Assembly (NCBI RefSeq): GCF_918731615.1
Contig: NZ_OU957226.1
Location: 1,550,001-1,614,000, forward strand
Direction: 5' to 3'
Source of the DNA: Flavobacterium sp. CECT 9288
GTDB lineage: Bacteria; Bacteroidota; Bacteroidia; Flavobacteriales; Flavobacteriaceae
DNA: 64,000 nt
Part shown: positions 52,440 to 60,578 of the stretch, one piece after another
Layout of the letters: every line of letters begins with the position of its first letter
How positions within the stretch are numbered: the first letter of the stretch is position 1
Notes under the pieces: generated by a model
What the model was told of the DNA's origin: nothing
What the model saw: only the letters and a program-made list of their open reading frames with translations
Database searches by the model: none
Position numbers and translations under genes: made by a program

Positions 52440-54347
52440 ATGAGTTACTACAAAATTGACAATCTAGAACAATACTTCAAGCATTATAATAAATCAGTAC
52501 GTGAACCTAGAAAATTTTGGGGAAAAATAGCCGAAGAAAATTTTACATGGTACCAGCAATGGGATAAGGTTGTTGAGTTTAATATGGCCGAAGCCGATAT
52601 AAAATGGTTCACCGAAGCTAAGGTTAATATTGTTAAAAATTGTATCGATAGGCACTTGGCCAAAAGAGGCGAAAAAACCGCTATAATTTTTGAACCAAAT
52701 AATCCAGATGAAGAAGCTCTGCATATAACCTATAATGAGTTACACCAAAGAGTGTGTAAAATGGCTAATGTTTTGCGTGAACAAGGCATCAAAAAAGGAG
52801 ATCGCGTTTGTATTTATCTACCAATGATTCCTGAGTTAGCTGTTTCAGTTCTTGCTTGTGCTCGTATTGGTGCAATTCACTCTGTAGTTTTTGCTGGATT
52901 TTCAGCATCGGCAGTAGCCAGTCGTATTAATGATAGTTCTTGCAAAATGGTGATAACGGCTGACGGTGGTTTTAGAGGAAACAAAACAATAGACTTGAAA
53001 AGTATTATTGATGAAGCAATAGAGAAGTGTACATCTGTCGAAAAAGTTTTAGTTGCCAAAAGAATTCATTCTAATGTTACTATGGTTGAAGATCGTGATC
53101 AATGGCTTCAACCATTATTAGATCAAGCCTCAGACAATAATGTTGCCGAAATAATGGATGCCGAAGATCCTTTATTCATTTTATACACATCTGGTTCTAC
53201 TGGAAAACCAAAAGGAATGGTACATACCACAGCGGGTTACATGGTGTATACGGCGTATACTTTCAAAAATGTTTTTAACTACGAAGAAAGTGATGTGTTC
53301 TGGTGCACGGCTGATATCGGTTGGATCACGGGTCATTCCTATATACTTTACGGACCATTATTGAACGGTGCAACGACCGTTATTTTTGAAGGAGTTCCTT
53401 CTTATCCTGACTTTAGTCGTTTTTGGGAGGTAATCGAAAAACATAAAATCACTCAATTTTATACCGCGCCAACTGCCATTCGTTCTTTGGCGAAAGAAAA
53501 TATAGAATTTGTACAAAAATATCCTTTAAAATCTTTAAAAGTAATTGGTTCTGTTGGAGAACCTATCAATGAAGAGGCTTGGCACTGGTACAACGATCAT
53601 GTTGGGGACAAAAGATGTCCAGTTGTAGATACTTGGTGGCAAACAGAAACAGGAGGAATTATGATTGCACCAATTGCTTTTGTAACGCCCACAAAACCAA
53701 CTTATGCAACTTTGCCTCTTCCTGGAGTTCAAGCGGTATTAATGGATGACAAGCGCAACGAAATTGAAGGCAATCAAGTCGTTGGAAGTTTGTGTATCAA
53801 ATTTCCTTGGCCAGGAATTGCCAGAACAATTTGGGGCGATCATCAAAGATATAAAGACACGTATTTTTCTGCATTTCCAGGTAAGTTTTTTACTGGTGAT
53901 GGTGCTTTGCGTGACGAAGTAGGATATTACAGAATTACTGGAAGAGTTGATGATGTGGTTATTGTATCGGGGCATAATTTGGGGACAGCTCCAATTGAGG
54001 ATGCAATTAATGAACATCCTGCGGTAGCTGAATCAGCAATTGTAGGCTTTCCGCATGATATTAAAGGAAATGCTTTGTACGGTTTTGTTATTTTAAAAGA
54101 AACTGGGGAAACGCGTAATAAAGAAAATTTAAGTAAAGAAATCAATCAGCATATTTCAGATCATATCGGACCTATTGCTAAGTTGGATAAAATTCAGTTT
54201 GTTTCTGGTTTACCAAAAACGCGCTCTGGAAAAATTATGAGGCGAATTTTACGTAAAATTGCCGAAGGAGATTATTCTAACTTTGGTGACATTACAACTT
54301 TATTAAATCCTGAAATTGTTGAAGAAATTAAAGAAGGAAAAGTTTAA
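52440..54347 (+). CDS. acs: Acetyl-CoA synthetase
   Basis: 635 residues, full length. Adenylates acetate and transfers it to CoA. Signature YTSGSTGKPKGMVHTT, the acyl-binding region WWQTETGGIMIAP, VSGHNLGTAPIEDAI and the C-terminal LPKTRSGKIMRRILRKIAEG, whose Lys is the acetylation/catalytic residue. Followed by a terminator, so it is not co-transcribed with the lipid cluster that starts 130 bases later. Confidence 0.97.
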   Translation: MSYYKIDNLEQYFKHYNKSVREPRKFWGKIAEENFTWYQQWDKVVEFNMAEADIKWFTEAKVNIVKNCIDRHLAKRGEKTAIIFEPNNPDEEALHITYNELHQRVCKMANVLREQGIKKGDRVCIYLPMIPELAVSVLACARIGAIHSVVFAGFSASAVASRINDSSCKMVITADGGFRGNKTIDLKSIIDEAIEKCTSVEKVLVAKRIHSNVTMVEDRDQWLQPLLDQASDNNVAEIMDAEDPLFILYTSGSTGKPKGMVHTTAGYMVYTAYTFKNVFNYEESDVFWCTADIGWITGHSYILYGPLLNGATTVIFEGVPSYPDFSRFWEVIEKHKITQFYTAPTAIRSLAKENIEFVQKYPLKSLKVIGSVGEPINEEAWHWYNDHVGDKRCPVVDTWWQTETGGIMIAPIAFVTPTKPTYATLPLPGVQAVLMDDKRNEIEGNQVVGSLCIKFPWPGIARTIWGDHQRYKDTYFSAFPGKFFTGDGALRDEVGYYRITGRVDDVVIVSGHNLGTAPIEDAINEHPAVAESAIVGFPHDIKGNALYGFVILKETGETRNKENLSKEINQHISDHIGPIAKLDKIQFVSGLPKTRSGKIMRRILRKIAEGDYSNFGDITTLLNPEIVEEIKEGKV

Positions 54348-54357
54348 ATATAAGAAT

Positions 54358-54385
54358 AGCCGTTTTATTTTAAAGCGGCTTTTTT
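54358..54385 (+). terminator. Terminator after acs
   Basis: 9-base-pair stem, 54358-54366 with 54372-54380 (one G-T pair), 5-base loop, then a run of T. Confidence 0.82.
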
Positions 54386-54478
54386 TTGTTGCTCTATTTT
54401 TTTAGACCATAATTATGTAAGTTTTTTTAAGTTTTATATAGCAAATGGTAATAAACTTATCCATAAATTTACTTCCAG

Positions 54479-55609
54479 ATGAAAGACAAAGAAGTACTTA
54501 TTATTGGTGGTGGTTTAGCTGGTTTGACTGCTGCAATTCATTTGTCTAAAAATGGACTTCAAGTAACGGTTATTGAAAAAAATGGTTTTCCAAAACATAA
54601 AGTTTGTGGAGAATATATTTCTAACGAAGTTTTACCTTATTTCAACTGGCTTGGTCTTGACCTATCTCATTTAAATCCTACACATATTACTATTCTTGAA
54701 TTTTCAACATCAAGTGGAAAAACTATTAAAAGTAATCTCCCGCTTGGAGGTTTTGGCATTAGTCGTTTTGCATTGGATTATTACTTGTATCAAAAAGCAA
54801 TCAAAAATGGTTGTACCTTTTTGCAAGATACTGTAGAGGAAATTGTCTATTCAAACAATGAATTTAATGTTAGAACAGTAAATAATAGTATTTTAAAATC
54901 TGAAATTGTTATTGGTGCTTTTGGTAAACGTTCTAATATTGACCAAAAAATGAACCGGGATTTCATAACTAAAAAGTCTCATTGGTTGGCAGTTAAGGCG
55001 CATTATAAGGGTGATTTCCCTAATGATTTAGTAGGGCTTCATAATTTCAAAGGTGGATATTGTGGCGTCTCTAAAGTGGAAAATGATAGTATTAATATAT
55101 GTTATCTTGCAGATTATGATACATTTAAAAAATATAAAAATATTGAAGAGTTTCAAAGTCATGTTCTAAAGCAAAACCCTCATTTGAACGAAATTTTCAA
55201 AAAAACAAAAATGCTTTTTGAAAAACCATTAACGATAAGCCAAGTATCGTTTGAAAAAAAACAAGCTGTTGAGAATCATATTTTAATGATTGGAGATACT
55301 GCAGGACTTATTCATCCTTTATGCGGCAACGGAATGGCAATGGCAATTCATAGTGCTAAAATTGTTTCAGAATTAGTTGATAAATACTATACCAGTGAAA
55401 TTAAATCTCGAGAAAAATTAGAAGAAGAATACATACAGGAATGGAATTTCAACTTTAAAGATCGACTAAAAATGGGTCGGTTTTTATCAAATATTTTGCA
55501 AAACCAAAAACTTTCAGGGGTATTAATGCGTTTATTAAGTATATTTCCTTTTTTATTACCTAAAATAATTAAAAAAACACACGGAAAACCAATCCTTTTA
55601 CAATCTTAA
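54479..55609 (+). CDS. FAD-dependent oxidoreductase, geranylgeranyl-reductase-like (cluster gene 1)
   Basis: 376 residues. FAD-binding GGGLAG at 10-15 and the distal flavin motif GDTAGLIHPLCGNGMAMA at 272-289 place it in the geranylgeranyl reductase/flavin monooxygenase group. The intermediate CGEY (43-46) is characteristic. The stop is directly joined to the methyltransferase ATG (0 bases). In the Streptomyces srs operon the third enzyme is a flavin hydroxylase acting on a type III PKS phenol; the same role is inferred here. It could equally reduce double bonds in a lipid. Confidence 0.85.
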   Translation: MKDKEVLIIGGGLAGLTAAIHLSKNGLQVTVIEKNGFPKHKVCGEYISNEVLPYFNWLGLDLSHLNPTHITILEFSTSSGKTIKSNLPLGGFGISRFALDYYLYQKAIKNGCTFLQDTVEEIVYSNNEFNVRTVNNSILKSEIVIGAFGKRSNIDQKMNRDFITKKSHWLAVKAHYKGDFPNDLVGLHNFKGGYCGVSKVENDSINICYLADYDTFKKYKNIEEFQSHVLKQNPHLNEIFKKTKMLFEKPLTISQVSFEKKQAVENHILMIGDTAGLIHPLCGNGMAMAIHSAKIVSELVDKYYTSEIKSREKLEEEYIQEWNFNFKDRLKMGRFLSNILQNQKLSGVLMRLLSIFPFLLPKIIKKTHGKPILLQS

Positions 55610-56320
55610 ATGGCATTAAATACTAAGTATAGAACTGATAAACCAGAAATAATGGACGATTTTGCCTTAGAAGGCGAGATTTTACGTGATGCTTTAGACA
55701 AAATAGCAAAAATTAATCAACTATTAGGTGGAAATAAGTTAACGTTAAAAGGAGTACAAGAACTTCTTAAACAATCTAAAAAAGAAGAAGTTACAATTGT
55801 GGATGTAGGTTGTGGCAATGGTGATATGCTGCGAACTTTAGCTGATTTTGGCATTAGTAACAAACTAAATTTTAAGTTGATAGGTATTGATGCTAACAAT
55901 TTTACAATTTCTCATGCAATACAATTATCAGAAAAATATACGAATATCAGTTATCGGTGTGAAGATATTTTTAAGGATTCTTTTAAGGAATTAAAATACG
56001 ATATTGTCTTGTGCACATTAACATTACATCATTTCAAAAACCATGAAATTGAAGATTTATTAAAAGTTTTCTATAAGAATTCATCGATAGGAATTGTAAT
56101 TAATGATTTACATCGAAGTCCAATTGCATACCGCTTATTTCAAGCATTATGTTTCGTGTTTCAATTAAATGATATGTCTAGAGAGGATGGATTAACTTCG
56201 ATTTTAAGAGGTTTTAAAAAAGAAGAATTAGTAGATTTCTCAAAAAAATTAAATTTTAAAAGGTATACAATTCACTGGCGATGGGCTTTTAGATACCAAT
56301 GGATAATTTCAAAAATATGA
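55610..56320 (+). CDS. SAM-dependent methyltransferase (cluster gene 2)
   Basis: 236 residues. The SAM motif IVDVGCGNGDML is at about 63-74, LIGIDANNF follows as motif post-I, and the CTLTLHHF acidic/aromatic segment is motif III. It overlaps the type III PKS start by 4 bases (ATGA). A methyltransferase accompanies type III PKS in other phenolic lipid operons, where it O-methylates the ring. Substrate not proven. Confidence 0.88.
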   Translation: MALNTKYRTDKPEIMDDFALEGEILRDALDKIAKINQLLGGNKLTLKGVQELLKQSKKEEVTIVDVGCGNGDMLRTLADFGISNKLNFKLIGIDANNFTISHAIQLSEKYTNISYRCEDIFKDSFKELKYDIVLCTLTLHHFKNHEIEDLLKVFYKNSSIGIVINDLHRSPIAYRLFQALCFVFQLNDMSREDGLTSILRGFKKEELVDFSKKLNFKRYTIHWRWAFRYQWIISKI

Positions 56321-57369
56321 GCGTAAAAATCAAAACAGTTACTAAACAGTTACCCAAATATTCTAAAAATACGGATGAAATTATCCCTTTTTTGGATGCT
56401 TGGCTTGTAGGGCAAGACGAGCGTTTTATTAGAAAAGTAAAGAAAATTTTTGAAGGAGCTGCAGTTGATAAACGATATTCTATTATGGATCCAATTGAAG
56501 TGTTTACCAAAACTTCTTTTGAAGAAAGAAATGACATCTATGTACGCGAAGTGATTGATTTAGGCGAAAAAGTTTTAGAAAAAGCCTTAAAAAAAGCCAG
56601 CTGGAACCCTGAAGATTTAGATTACATTATCACAGTAAGTTGCACTGGAATTATGATTCCGTCACTGGATGCCTATTTAATTAATAAGTTAAAACTACGC
56701 CATGATATAGTGCGACTTCCAGTTACTGAAATGGGTTGTGCTGCTGGAATTTCGGGGATAATTTATGCTAAAAACTTTTTGCAGGCTAATCCCGGAAAAC
56801 GTGCCGCTGTAATTGCAGTTGAAAGTCCAACAGCTACATTTCAATTGGATGATTTTTCTATGGCCAATATTGTGAGTGCCGCCATTTTTGGTGACGGAGC
56901 AGCTTGCGTTTTATTATCTTCTCATGAGGACGATGAAGGTCCAGAAATTCTAGCTGAAGAGATGTATCATTTTTATGACAACATACACATGATGGGCTTC
57001 AAATTAACGAATTCTGGATTGCAAATGGTCTTGGATATTGAAGTTCCCGAAACGATTGCTTCGCATTTCCCTGATATTATTCATCCCTTTTTAGAAAAAT
57101 ATAATTTAAAAATGGAAGATATTGATCATTTGATTTTTCATCCTGGAGGAAAGAAAATAGTACAAACAGTAGAAAGTTTATTTTCAAATTTGGGTAAAAA
57201 TATAGACGATACAAAAGAGGTTTTACGATTGTACGGAAACATGTCTAGTGCAACGGTTTTATATGTTTTAGAACGAATAATGGACAATCAGCCTAAAAAA
57301 GGGGAGAGGGGTTTAATGTTAAGTTTTGGTCCAGGATTTTCTGCCCAAAGAGTTTTGTTACAATTTTAA
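56317..57369 (+). CDS. Type III polyketide synthase (cluster gene 3)
   Basis: 350 residues from the ATG at 56317, whose ATGA overlap with the previous stop decides the start; an ATG at 56299 would add six residues. The catalytic triad is intact: Cys141 (TEMGCAAGISG), His275 (IFHPGG) and Asn308 (YGNMSSAT), and the C-terminal SFGPGFSAQRVLL matches the GFGPG loop. Such enzymes extend a starter acyl unit with malonyl-CoA and cyclise it to a resorcinol, pyrone or phloroglucinol. With the adjacent ACP and fatty-acid-type enzymes, a long or modified acyl starter is likely. Product unknown. Confidence 0.95.
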   Translation: MSVKIKTVTKQLPKYSKNTDEIIPFLDAWLVGQDERFIRKVKKIFEGAAVDKRYSIMDPIEVFTKTSFEERNDIYVREVIDLGEKVLEKALKKASWNPEDLDYIITVSCTGIMIPSLDAYLINKLKLRHDIVRLPVTEMGCAAGISGIIYAKNFLQANPGKRAAVIAVESPTATFQLDDFSMANIVSAAIFGDGAACVLLSSHEDDEGPEILAEEMYHFYDNIHMMGFKLTNSGLQMVLDIEVPETIASHFPDIIHPFLEKYNLKMEDIDHLIFHPGGKKIVQTVESLFSNLGKNIDDTKEVLRLYGNMSSATVLYVLERIMDNQPKKGERGLMLSFGPGFSAQRVLLQF

Positions 57370-57385
57370 TTCACTTTTAAATATA

Positions 57386-57820
57386 ATGACAAACCAAGAG
57401 ATCATATCCAAGTTACCGTATTCTAAACCGTTTCTCTTTGTAGACGAAATAATTTCAATTGATGAAAATGGAGTAGAAGGAACCTATACTTTTGATGAAA
57501 ATCTTGATTTTTATATAGGACATTTTAAAGACAATCCAGTGACACCAGGAGTAATCTTGACAGAGGTGATGGCACAAATTGGTCTAGTATGTTTAGGTGT
57601 ATTTTTATTAAATGAAAGCTTAACTAAAAACATAGTAATTGGCTTAACATCTACAGATATTGAATTTTTAAAACCTGTTTTTCCTAACGAAAAAGTAACC
57701 GTTTTTTCCCAGAAAATTTATTTCAGATTCGGAAAATTAAAATGTAAAGTAATCATGAAAAATGAAAAAGAAGAAGTGGTGTGTACAGGAACAATTGCTG
57801 GAATGATAATTTCTAAATAA
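57386..57820 (+). CDS. FabZ-like 3-hydroxyacyl-ACP dehydratase (cluster gene 4)
   Basis: 144 residues from the ATG at 57386, 16 bases after the PKS stop; an earlier frame start inside the PKS gene was rejected. Hotdog fold with His46 in IGHFKDNPVTPG and Glu60 in LTEVMAQIG, the FabZ catalytic pair. It begins with PYSKPFLFVDEI, standard for FabZ. The stop TAA is directly followed by the ketosynthase ATG. A second FabZ beside the housekeeping one suggests a dedicated acyl chain. Confidence 0.88.
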   Translation: MTNQEIISKLPYSKPFLFVDEIISIDENGVEGTYTFDENLDFYIGHFKDNPVTPGVILTEVMAQIGLVCLGVFLLNESLTKNIVIGLTSTDIEFLKPVFPNEKVTVFSQKIYFRFGKLKCKVIMKNEKEEVVCTGTIAGMIISK

Positions 57821-59101
57821 ATGAAAAAGAGAGTTGTTATTACTGGGCTAGGTGTTGTTGCTCCGAATGGAGTTGGACTTGATGCGTTTACACATGCCAT
57901 CAAAAACGGAATTTCAGGAATTAAGCATGAACCAGAATTGGAACGATTGAAATTTTCTTGTCAAATAGCGGGAAAACCTGAAATTTCTAATGAATTAGCT
58001 TTACACTATTTTTCAGAACTAGAGTTAAGAAATTTCAATTCATCTGGAATTTTGTATGGTGTAATAGCGGGTATTGATGCATGGAAAGATGCCGGATTAT
58101 CTTTAGAAATAAATGAAGAACCAGATTGGGACAGCGGAACTATTTTTGGAACTGGAACATCTGGGATTGAAAAATTTCGTGAAAGCATCTATAAAATTGA
58201 TGATTATCAAACCAGAAGATTGGGTAGTACTGCCGTAGCGCAAACTATGAATAGTGGTGTAAGCGCTTATTTAGGAGGTAAATTAGGTTTAGGTAATCAA
58301 GTCACTACAAATTCCTCGGCCTGCACAACGGGTACAGAAAGCATTTTGATGGCCTATGACCGCATAAAATCAGGTCAAGCCACACGTATACTAGCAGGAA
58401 GCACTAGTGATTCTGGCCCATACATTTGGGGCGGATTTGATGCGATGAAAGTATGTACTTTTAAGCATAATTACCATCCAGAACACGGCTCAAGGCCAAT
58501 GTCAGTAAGCGCTTCGGGTTTTGTACCCGGAAGTGGAGCAGGAGCTTTAGTTTTGGAAGATTTACAAACAGCACTTGCAAGAAACGCAACCATTTACGCA
58601 GAAGTTTTGGGAGGCAATTTAAATTCAGGTGGTCAACGCGGTTTAGGAACAATGACTGCTCCAAATCCTGTTGCTGTGCAGAAATGTATTCAAAATGCCT
58701 TAACAAATGCTGGAATTTCAGCAAATGAAGTTGATGCAATCAACGGACATTTAACAGCTACATCAAAAGATAGTTTAGAAATTCAGAATTGGAGTGAAGC
58801 TTTGGGCAGAAAAGGAAAAGATTTTCCGTATATAAACTCGTTGAAATCAATGGTAGGCCATTGTTTGTCTGGGGCGGGTAGTATAGAAAGTGTGGCATCG
58901 GTATTGCAATTGCATCATGGATTTGTTTTTCCGAATATTAATTGTGACGATTTGCATCCCGAAATTACAACAATAATTGATGAATCGAGAGTACCACAAC
59001 AACTAATAGAAAAAGAATTAAATATCATTGCTAAAGCTAGTTTTGGTTTTGGTGATGTAAATGGGTGTGTAATATTTAAGAAATATAAATCCCATAATTA
59101 A
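57821..59101 (+). CDS. FabF-like beta-ketoacyl-ACP synthase (cluster gene 5)
   Basis: 426 residues. Cys168 in TTNSSACTTGTESI is the acyl-binding nucleophile, with His310 in INGHLTATSKDS and His347 in MVGHCLSGAGS completing the Cys-His-His triad. In housekeeping FabF the first His lies in an NxHGTGT-type motif; here the Gly and Thr are replaced (HLTATSKD), indicating a specialised branch. It starts at ATG 57821 with zero gap. It may elongate an ACP-bound acyl chain for the type III PKS. Confidence 0.9.
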   Translation: MKKRVVITGLGVVAPNGVGLDAFTHAIKNGISGIKHEPELERLKFSCQIAGKPEISNELALHYFSELELRNFNSSGILYGVIAGIDAWKDAGLSLEINEEPDWDSGTIFGTGTSGIEKFRESIYKIDDYQTRRLGSTAVAQTMNSGVSAYLGGKLGLGNQVTTNSSACTTGTESILMAYDRIKSGQATRILAGSTSDSGPYIWGGFDAMKVCTFKHNYHPEHGSRPMSVSASGFVPGSGAGALVLEDLQTALARNATIYAEVLGGNLNSGGQRGLGTMTAPNPVAVQKCIQNALTNAGISANEVDAINGHLTATSKDSLEIQNWSEALGRKGKDFPYINSLKSMVGHCLSGAGSIESVASVLQLHHGFVFPNINCDDLHPEITTIIDESRVPQQLIEKELNIIAKASFGFGDVNGCVIFKKYKSHN

Positions 59102-59199
59102 CCATTAAAAAAGGGAATGAAGCCTTGGTCAAAATTATTAAATAGTAATTAGGAATGACTTTTAAAATTTTAAAAACTCTAAATTAAACAACATTAAGT

Positions 59200-59457
59200 A
59201 TGAATAAAGAACAAACCATTCAAGAATTAAAAAATATAGTAAAACCATACATTCAAAATCAAGAAGCATTTGATTTAATGACTATTAATACTGATTTTAT
59301 AAATGATTTAAAGATAAACTCAGCAAATTTAGTGGATGTAATTTTAGACATAGAGGAGAAGTACGATATTATAATTGATAATGAAGCTATGGAACGCATG
59401 ATCAACGTAGAGGCAGCATTAGAAATTATTGAGGCAAAATTATCCGAGAAAAACTAA
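59200..59457 (+). CDS. Acyl carrier protein (cluster gene 6)
   Basis: 85 residues, acidic. Aligned to AcpP, the phosphopantetheine Ser is Ser41 in LKINSANLVDVILDIEEKYDI, where the usual DSL is NSA. The helix II region LVDVILDIEEKYDI and the C-terminal MINVEAALEIIEAKL are typical. A 98-base gap separates it from the ketosynthase gene and 26 bases from the PPTase. It is likely the dedicated carrier for the cluster. Confidence 0.85.
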   Translation: MNKEQTIQELKNIVKPYIQNQEAFDLMTINTDFINDLKINSANLVDVILDIEEKYDIIIDNEAMERMINVEAALEIIEAKLSEKN

Positions 59458-59483
59458 CAATTGCAAAATTAAAAATTTGTAAA

Positions 59484-59978
59484 ATGATTGGAAACGATAT
59501 TGTAGATTTGGCTTTAGCCAAAAAAGAAAGTAACTGGAAACGTAACGGATATTTAGATAAAATTTTTACTGCAAAAGAGCAATTCTTAATCAAAAATGCT
59601 GTTGATTCAGATTTAATGGTTTGGAATTTATGGACTAGAAAAGAAGCAGCCTATAAAATTTTTAATAGAGAAACAGGTAAAAGAGGCTTTTTTCCATTAC
59701 TTTTAGAGTGTATCCTTGATGATGAAAAAACCGGAAAAGTGGTTATTCTAGATAAAAGCTATTTCACTAAAACTATTATAGATGATAACGCTGTTTATTC
59801 TGTTGCTGTAATTCATGAGCTTGATTTCAAAAAAGTAACAATCATAAATCCAGAAACAGCATCAATTGTAAAAAAGAATTCTATTCCATTTATCATTGAT
59901 GCTGCTACATCAACAGAAAAACCAATTTCTATTACACATCACGGTAGGTTTTGGAAAGGGGTAATGCTTGTTGGCTAA
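59484..59978 (+). CDS. 4'-phosphopantetheinyl transferase superfamily protein (cluster gene 7)
   Basis: 164 residues. GNDIVD (residues 3-8) supplies the metal-binding Asp and WTRKEAAYK (50-58) the catalytic Glu-Lys motif, as in AcpS-type transferases. Converts apo-ACP to holo-ACP, presumably the adjacent carrier. The C-terminal tail (SITHHGRFWKGV) has no counterpart I recognise. It ends only 3 bases from the stop of the convergent DnaQ-like gene, with no terminator between. Confidence 0.85.
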   Translation: MIGNDIVDLALAKKESNWKRNGYLDKIFTAKEQFLIKNAVDSDLMVWNLWTRKEAAYKIFNRETGKRGFFPLLLECILDDEKTGKVVILDKSYFTKTIIDDNAVYSVAVIHELDFKKVTIINPETASIVKKNSIPFIIDAATSTEKPISITHHGRFWKGVMLVG

Positions 59979-59981
59979 GTG

Positions 59982-60578
59982 TTATTTAATACCTAATCTA
60001 GATTTTAATTTTAAAAACAACAGCGCTGTTTTATATGCATCATCTGCAGCAGAATTGCGATCACTAACCGGAATTTTATAAAACTCACATAGCTCATCAA
60101 GCGGACAGTCTTTATCAGTACTATCTTGAAGTTTTCTATGCATAACATCAATGTCTAGTGCTTCATTTTTCAACCTTCCACAATCCATTCTTTCTAAAGC
60201 TTCATTGATCATATCTACATCAAAATCAACATGGTGTCCTACTAGAACTGCATTGCCTATAAACTCTAAAAATGACTTTAAGGCTTCGGGCTCACTAACT
60301 TTTTTAATTTTACTTTCTACTAAAAATTCATTAGTTAAACCGTTGTCATGAAAATATTTATACTGTGTTAAAACAGCCTCAAAATTATCCCCAACCAAAA
60401 TTGAATTATTAACCACCGAAAAAGATCCAATAGATAAAATAACATCATTTTTAGGATTTAAACCCGTAGTTTCAGTTGAAAACACAACAAATCTGGATGA
60501 TTTTTTATCAAATTTAGCTACATAAGCTTTCCAGAAATCTGGATATTCTTTATTGATATTTTTTAACCAATCTAACAT
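59982..60578 (-). CDS. DnaQ-like exonuclease-fold protein with altered active site
   Basis: 198 residues. RNase H-like DEDDh fold with motif I written VFSTETTG: the first acidic residue of DxE is Ser34 (codon TCA), while Glu36 remains. Motif II VGHHVDFD keeps Asp120. Motif III should be HxAxxD; it reads NSAADD, so the His is Asn175. Two of five catalytic positions are lost. It starts one base after the DUF294 stop. Probably inactive or repurposed; a different metal chemistry cannot be excluded. Confidence 0.8.
   Translation of the reverse strand: MLDWLKNINKEYPDFWKAYVAKFDKKSSRFVVFSTETTGLNPKNDVILSIGSFSVVNNSILVGDNFEAVLTQYKYFHDNGLTNEFLVESKIKKVSEPEALKSFLEFIGNAVLVGHHVDFDVDMINEALERMDCGRLKNEALDIDVMHRKLQDSTDKDCPLDELCEFYKIPVSDRNSAADDAYKTALLFLKLKSRLGIK

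Follow-up and report, generated by a model that had tools for sequence, protein, structure and literature searches.

A seven-gene type III polyketide synthase block conserved in Flavobacterium and its predicted role as a phenolic-lipid pathway

What would a type III polyketide synthase (PKS) make when it is encoded together with an acyl carrier protein (ACP), a ketosynthase (KS), a dehydratase (DH) and a 4'-phosphopantetheinyl transferase (PPTase) of its own? This question is raised by a locus of Flavobacterium sp. CECT 9288, located in a stretch of 64,000 nucleotides (contig NZ_OU957226.1, positions 1,550,001 to 1,614,000; the window), in which seven open reading frames (ORFs), all on the + strand, fill the whole interval 54479-59978. 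They encode a flavin adenine dinucleotide (FAD)-dependent oxidoreductase, an S-adenosylmethionine (SAM)-dependent methyltransferase (MT), the PKS, and a module of DH, KS, ACP and PPTase. We are moderately confident that these genes form a conserved block working as a phenolic-lipid pathway, in which the PKS receives its chain from a dedicated acyl-ACP and the resulting ring undergoes methylation and oxidation; the product, the starter and the transfer from ACP to PKS are what we infer from the sequences. This reading has been preferred because the gene order is invariant in complete loci, because PKS and KS occur in the same genomes, and because housekeeping copies of the module genes lie elsewhere. 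It has been favoured further by a FabL-like reductase in relatives, by module copies beside darB, by the homology of FAD enzyme and MT to those of other PKS-MT-FAD clusters, and by precedents for acyl-ACP starters, namely ArsB/ArsC, which are supplied by ArsA, and SCO7671 and GCS, which use hexanoyl-ACP (excerpts of PMC6274091).

In the proposed pathway the PPTase would, judging from motifs, add the phosphopantetheine arm to Ser41 of the ACP, on which KS and DH would extend an acyl chain. A presumed housekeeping FabG would carry out the beta-keto reduction and a presumed housekeeping enzyme the enoyl reduction, for which relatives could use the FabL-like reductase instead. The PKS would take the acyl-ACP as starter, add malonyl units and cyclise the chain, an alkylresorcinol being somewhat likelier than a pyrone; the MT would methylate and the FAD enzyme hydroxylate the ring, yielding a methylated hydroquinone or quinone lipid.

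Conservation of the block

How far the gene order is conserved had been posed as a check on the original prediction. Scanning a genome collection gave 409 loci encoding a relative, of which the best 80 were retained; nearly all of these 80 are labelled Flavobacterium or Flavobacteriaceae, with a PKS 84-97% identical. Together with loci from whole-genome searches, 114 non-redundant loci with a PKS orthologue have been obtained, 18 of which are cut by the end of the locus or contig (among them a 4-kb copy of the very locus studied here). All seven genes are present in 90 of the 96 uncut loci, and in each of these 90 they stand in identical order, which goes beyond chance. The PPTase is missing in five of the 96 (L116, L117, L118, L177, L183; L and G numbers denote compared loci and genomes), and one (L172) is devoid of both DH and PPTase.

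The two synthases also co-occur. Among 200 Flavobacterium genomes, drawn evenly and at least 95% complete, a type III PKS match (E 1e-20) has been found in 110, comprising 106 with an orthologue (at least 67% identity) and four with relatives only (27-32%). A KS match (E 1e-100) has been observed in 106 genomes, which are the very same ones, and in none of the other 94. Across 395 Bacteroidota genomes, 174 have a type III PKS match and 33 an orthologue (at least 67%; the next match has 37%), and the KS (E 1e-80) is encoded in 38, i.e., all 33 orthologue genomes plus G099, G391, G046, G077 and G127. The KS is also seen in all 114 orthologue loci except those cut short. The claim that KS, DH, ACP and PPTase belong with the PKS is thus supported, both by the presence of the KS in every orthologue genome of the genus and by the conserved order.

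A few loci show individual peculiarities. Single ORFs of foreign appearance inside the block, named by eye, resemble VOC proteins in L164 and MepB in L180 (both after the PKS) and a GIY-YIG protein in L178 (between DH and KS). In L018, a metagenome-derived contig, the ketosynthase reads as two pieces, through an assembly error or a broken gene. L064, labelled as a metagenome-assembled genome of Klebsiella pneumoniae, encodes DH, KS, ACP and PPTase together with a PKS of 90% identity; misbinned Flavobacterium sequence is the likeliest explanation.

The type III PKS and its predicted tailoring pair

Residues of the PKS have been numbered from the first ATG at 56299, although many relatives align only from residue 4-7 of this longest ORF, and the start at 56317 has therefore been preferred. 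Conservation of all proteins was read from the alignment columns of the orthologue loci. The Cys-His-Asn triad, already described as intact from the single sequence, is invariant in all 114 loci (Cys147, His281, Asn314), and together with chalcone/stilbene synthase domains above the Pfam cut-off it places the protein among type III PKSs. The best solved relative is Pks11 (E 8e-53), the alpha-pyrone synthases of this name being the closest solved proteins; CylI is another solved relative (E 7e-37). In a plasmid search all type III PKSs have been found to be distant, with less than 60% identity in 254 of 254 records, five of which were inspected.

A distinctive feature of the enzyme is Phe234 in the motif MGF, which is present in 114 of 114 orthologues. 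The same column holds Trp in 40 of 41 other type III PKSs, a chosen sample of the fetched loci; only L136 differs, with a Phe where the alignment is poor. By the MGW motif, the alignment and the ArsB numbering, Phe234 probably corresponds to position 281 of ArsB, which is reported to steer between resorcinol and pyrone. Trp281 of ArsB has been described to favour the resorcinol and Gly at the same place in ArsC the pyrone, an aromatic residue acting as a steric wall (excerpts of PMC6274091 and PMC9927152), and Trp has likewise been described for PkqA and the MNU77 enzyme (excerpts of PMC9927152). With the column placed by motif and alignment, the block enzyme thus departs from the hid, pkq and srs type, in which Trp is expected. 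The Phe may, with weak confidence, be taken to keep the steric wall while altering it and to direct cyclisation to the resorcinol over the pyrone. With an aromatic residue retained at the probable cyclisation position, an alkylresorcinol has been ranked somewhat higher; the resorcinol product is nevertheless a guess, since the PKS shares only 26-33% identity with the PKSs of MT- and FAD-containing clusters and has Phe instead of Trp.

The FAD oxidoreductase scores 111 bits with GG-red-SF (below the cut-off of 158.8) and is predicted to be a ring hydroxylase (or reductase), and the MT scores 126 bits with PRK06202 (below 243) and is predicted to methylate the ring at O or C. A type III PKS, an MT and an FAD enzyme also stand together, with the module absent, in seven clusters of other Bacteroidota (L142, L144, L146, L147, L148, L151, L174), in which the genes do not keep a single order; between FAD enzyme and PKS, L148 and L151 have an ORF on the opposite strand. 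Their identity to the window amounts to 31-45% for the FAD enzyme, 27-43% for the MT and 26-32% for the PKS, and one further, more distant locus has a PKS with 33%. The comparison with the Streptomyces srs genes made in the original prediction holds therefore in part: the FAD/MT pair is homologous, but the PKS is only remotely similar and carries Phe in place of Trp.

The FAD family is present in 82 of the 395 Bacteroidota genomes (E 1e-40). It has 51 matches in genomes other than the 33 with an orthologue: for 25 of them a listed PKS match is found at a distance of up to 5 kb, for 13 it is not, and the remaining 13 have no stated PKS position to compare. The closest non-orthologue PKSs among the fetched loci (36-37%, e.g., L119 and L128) have no adjoining MT or FAD enzyme, whereas the FAD enzyme and MT are closer to the PKS-MT-FAD clusters. 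This gives a hint, which we do not raise to a claim, that a PKS may have been swapped into such a cluster, as the three groups cannot be rooted without an outgroup and long branches call for caution in the PKS tree. Among more distant arrangements, a Deinococcus plasmid (L187:4001-7036) encodes a type III PKS, a PRK06202 methyltransferase (314.7 bits, cut-off 243), and an FAD monooxygenase in a row, and then a glycosyltransferase.

The predicted chain-building module

The catalytic residues of the module have been found to be kept. His46 and Glu60 of the DH are present in 113 of 113 loci, Ser41 of the ACP in 97 of 97, and Asp5, Glu54 and Lys58 of the PPTase in 91 of 91; the KS shows Cys168 in 110, His310 in 108, Lys342 in 107 and His347 in 106 of 113 loci, the remainder being gaps with zero substitutions. 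For the PPTase, sequence search returned no solved relative at E 0.01. The genome has its housekeeping ACP and FabF, another FabZ and one more PPTase at other places, and the block KS is only 32% identical to the housekeeping FabF; the copies in the block therefore look dedicated. The genome has three clear ketosynthases, i.e., FabF, the block KS and one among genes that resemble bioF/bioD/bioA by eye, and two further weak PF00109 matches (25.9 and 21.3 bits, cut-off 20.8). The other FabZ (G000:C1:1665427-1665801) lies within an ORF of 468 amino acids, the size of an LpxC-FabZ fusion.

As a chain-building set, the block is incomplete. By ORF list and Pfam, no ketoreductase is found among the seven genes and no enoyl reductase in the block of this genome, and the block would consequently have to borrow from the housekeeping fatty acid synthase (FAS). 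The proposal that KS, DH and ACP build a specialised acyl-ACP stands insofar as these genes belong with the PKS, but not as a self-sufficient set. In relatives this set is extended: an ORF of ~260 residues lies between PKS and DH in 17 of the 114 orthologue loci. Of the 16 orthologue genomes that the phylum search gave outside the genus, 12 have the gene (all but G080, G107, G138 and G226), as do six of the 200 Flavobacterium genomes. Its product is a short-chain dehydrogenase/reductase (SDR) protein. Among NCBIfam families FabL fits it best, with 161 and 150 bits, short of the cut-off of 328, and the best solved relative is B. subtilis FabL (3oic, E 1.7e-25); FabG-type models match as well. 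All 17 products carry Y(A/G)AVS(A/V/S)AK, i.e., Tyr-x6-Lys, which we take to be the active-site motif of FabL enoyl-ACP reductases, and an assignment as ketoreductase has been rejected on account of this motif and of FabL as the best family.

No FabL-like match has been obtained at E 1e-40 in the genome of Flavobacterium sp. CECT 9288. In a PKS tree built by a quick method from 56 orthologue rows (17 with the reductase, 39 without) and 18 others, presence of the reductase changes nine times. Repeated loss is the more natural explanation, because the gene turns up in several of the branches close to the unresolved base, the count of changes itself being unable to separate loss from gain. One may ask whether the starter made by the block is unsaturated (enoyl or short polyenoyl) in the reductase-free genomes, including the present one, and the product consequently differs between lineages. 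The scarcity of the reductase within the genus and its nine changes would agree with this, yet a housekeeping enoyl reductase could serve, and a repeated change with no loss of other genes suggests that the enzyme is replaceable; we regard lineage-specific unsaturation as rather unlikely.

The module has also been encountered away from the PKS. In G099 and G391, both devoid of a PKS orthologue, reductase, DH, KS, ACP and PPTase stand back to back with darB-containing genes (L189:7776-11286 and L190:8155-11706; darB matches of 634.8 and 614.7 bits, cut-off 550). In G077 (L191:8597-12603) reductase, DH, KS and ACP lie beside a protein of ~380 residues with a GNAT domain (Pfam, 25.6 bits, cut-off 20.7). 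G046 and G127 (L192:8724-11856 and L193:6825-10071) have DH, KS and ACP next to a protein of ~380 residues that is GNAT-like by eye. An amino-lipid route is possible for these GNAT-adjacent copies; a PLP enzyme of the BioF/Kbl type is encoded some genes away from the module in G077. Finally, G577 (L171:6341-10405) has ACP, reductase, DH, KS and PPTase followed by a hexapeptide-repeat protein, separate from its PKS block. As that block is L172, the one devoid of DH and PPTase, it looks as if the block has been split in two in this genome.

The chain-building set is thus portable and stands, in two genomes, beside another resorcinol-forming enzyme. Among the indirect hints, the darB-adjacent copies speak most clearly for a module whose chains are destined for ring formation. 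Portability can also be read differently, namely as two pathways in one operon, with a phenol made by PKS, MT and FAD enzyme from acyl-CoA and an acyl chain made by KS, DH, ACP and PPTase for another acceptor or for an ester of the phenol. PKS-free module copies, whose neighbours are darB, a GNAT-like protein or a hexapeptide-repeat protein, would be in line with such a division, as would the trio existing without the module. It is opposed by the absence of an acyltransferase from the block (Pfam), by the sharing of PKS and KS among the same 106 genomes and by the KS in every orthologue locus that is not cut short, and we consider it unlikely. With more doubt than conviction, we propose that a portable mini fatty-acid synthase of Bacteroidota may plug into unrelated end enzymes, that the Flavobacterium PKS, with its Trp-to-Phe exchange, may be adapted to ACP-bound chains, and that a type III PKS equipped with a type II FAS of its own may be seen here for the first time, making an undescribed lipid class.

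Several points weigh against the phenolic-lipid reading. The best NCBIfam match of the PKS is DpgA (182 bits, far below the cut-off of 425), the product of which is an aromatic acyl-CoA and not a lipid. The PKS is without the Trp linked to resorcinol formation, and the module stands, whole or in part, away from the PKS in six loci (L171, L189-L193), so that the tie between them is not obligatory in general. PPTase and DH are dispensable or replaceable, as seen from their losses; the block has no ketoreductase and this genome no FabL-like enoyl reductase at the threshold used; and the substrates of the block enzymes are predictions from sequence. The DpgA match invites a further alternative, in which the ACP would take up a small aromatic starter made by the PKS, and KS and DH would lengthen it as in aryl-polyene synthesis, where an absent enoyl reductase could leave the double bonds in place. 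The block encodes neither an acyl-CoA ligase, other than the flanking acs, nor a ketoreductase, the FabL-like enzyme of relatives would erase a polyene, and the DpgA score is far below its cut-off, the nearest solved relatives being alpha-pyrone synthases. We therefore regard an aromatic starter as very doubtful and retain the phenolic-lipid pathway as the preferred reading.

Known systems, layout and flanking genes

Type III PKS, MT and FAD oxidoreductase are adjacent on one strand and are kept so in all complete loci, which is the arrangement of the hid, pkq and srs type. Three-gene operons of PKS, MT and oxidoreductase have been described as hidABC in cyanobacteria, in planctomycetes, and as pkqABC in Mycobacterium/Streptomyces (excerpts of PMC8086630, PMC10896814 and PMC9927152). 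According to these excerpts, planctomycete PKSs made alkylresorcinols and HidC is called an alkylresorcinol synthase (PMC10896814, PMC8086630), and pkq makes alkyl benzoquinones (PMC9927152). The same excerpts make no mention of ACP, KS, DH or PPTase, which are present in the block, and give the order MT-oxidoreductase-PKS for hid and most planctomycetes, in contrast to FAD-MT-PKS here. The likeness of FAD enzyme and MT to these systems has been drawn via the Bacteroidota pairs, Hid and pkq themselves being compared by description only.

A functional parallel is offered by the Azotobacter ars system, in which, as in our reading of the block, ACP-bound starters are handed straight from a FAS to type III PKSs (excerpts of PMC6274091). 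There the synthase is the type I enzyme ArsA, whereas the block has separate type II-style proteins; no type I FAS gene stands beside the PKS, and the chain-building proteins are all single-domain. In cylindrocyclophane synthesis the type III PKS CylI is fed a carrier-protein-bound chain, as proposed here, but there a free-standing ACP receives the chain and type I PKSs lengthen it, a FabF/FabZ set being unmentioned in the excerpts (PMC8086630). The flexirubin/dialkylresorcinol systems share the reductase-DH-KS-ACP-PPTase module beside darB genes in two Bacteroidota and differ in the ring former, which is DarB and not a type III PKS; the block PKS scores 25.6 bits with the DarB model (cut-off 550), and no other block gene is of that kind. 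Aryl-polyene type II PKS clusters comprise several KSs, a ketoreductase and two ACPs, and the block has one KS, one ACP and no ketoreductase. Membership in a flexirubin or aryl-polyene cluster has been rejected, the clear ketosynthases of the genome being FabF, the block KS and the one of the bio neighbourhood.

Searches of the open-licence PubMed Central literature listed no pathway with this gene set, in agreement with the original prediction, which knew of no characterised one with exactly these genes. The individual parts are known; new are their combination, the clade-wide Phe and the portable module. Type III PKS clusters made up 9% of the clusters in a study of 66 bacteria, Flavobacteriaceae plus other groups (PMC7440613), and 10.74% of the biosynthetic clusters of Flavobacteriaceae in 2,680 genomes (PMC10734526), and, in excerpt, surveys counting them in Flavobacteriaceae and other Bacteroidota name no product (PMC7440613, PMC10734526, PMC9323603, PMC10752948). 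One conserved type of these clusters, present in 106 of 200 Flavobacterium genomes, has now been defined, and concrete predictions come with it: acyl-ACP is supplied by a dedicated set, the residue for cyclisation is altered, and the enoyl reductase can be replaced. Through the module copies next to darB, two otherwise separate ways of making bacterial resorcinol lipids would be connected.

The coordinates of the block and its flanks are collected in Table 1. The gene functions named from the sequence alone have been supported throughout, with Pfam matches above the curated cut-offs for six of the seven proteins, the ACP being the one with no Pfam match. The strand and the spacings have been reproduced (0 bases between FAD enzyme and MT, 16 between PKS and DH, 0 between DH and KS, 98 between KS and ACP, 26 between ACP and PPTase); the 4-base overlap (ATGA) of MT and PKS requires the PKS start at 56317, the first ATG giving an overlap of 22 bases.

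Table 1. Features of the block and its surroundings in the window (scores in bits)
Feature	Position	Strand	Evidence and remarks
Acetyl-CoA synthetase (acs), left flank, outside block	52440-54347	+	AcsA 953.7, cut-off 725
Terminator-like hairpin	54358-54380	+	10 pairs, 4 G-C, then T run; predicted upstream boundary of transcription unit
FAD-dependent oxidoreductase, geranylgeranyl-reductase/UbiH-like	54479-55609	+	PF01494 46.4, cut-off 22
SAM-dependent methyltransferase (PRK06202/UbiG-like)	55610-56320	+	PF13649 50.1, cut-off 27
Type III PKS	56317-57369 (ORF open from ATG 56299)	+	PF00195 81, PF02797 70, cut-offs 27
FabZ-like 3-hydroxyacyl-ACP dehydratase (DH)	57386-57820	+	PF07977 48.4, cut-off 23; solved FabZ relatives
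FabF-like beta-ketoacyl-ACP synthase (KS)	57821-59101	+	PF00109/PF02801
Acyl carrier protein	59200-59457	+	Motif INSA, Ser41; alignable with E. coli ACP; NCBIfam acyl carrier protein match at E 3e-9, score below cut-off
4'-Phosphopantetheinyl transferase, ACPS superfamily	59484-59978	+	PF01648 47.5, cut-off 25
DnaQ-like exonuclease, right flank, outside block	59982-60578	-	PF00929; conserved neighbour in relatives
Cyclic-nucleotide/CBS-domain protein (by eye), second on right flank	to 62496	-	Conserved neighbour in relatives

Because of the terminator-like hairpin between acs and the first gene, the block looks like a transcription unit of its own; terminator-like sites in 54300-60100 number five, compared with 2.4 (sd 1.7) in shuffled sequences. 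In many relatives the usual flanks are ilvC and acs on the left and the exonuclease on the right. Membership of acs or the ilv genes in the pathway has been rejected, as ilvC with acs (L194) or ilvC (L195, L197) persists without the block. For genomes devoid of the block, 24 of the 94 orthologue-free Flavobacterium genomes were searched for the exonuclease, which was found in 18, and 12 of these were examined: acs directly adjoins the exonuclease in four, ilvC in two and something else in six.

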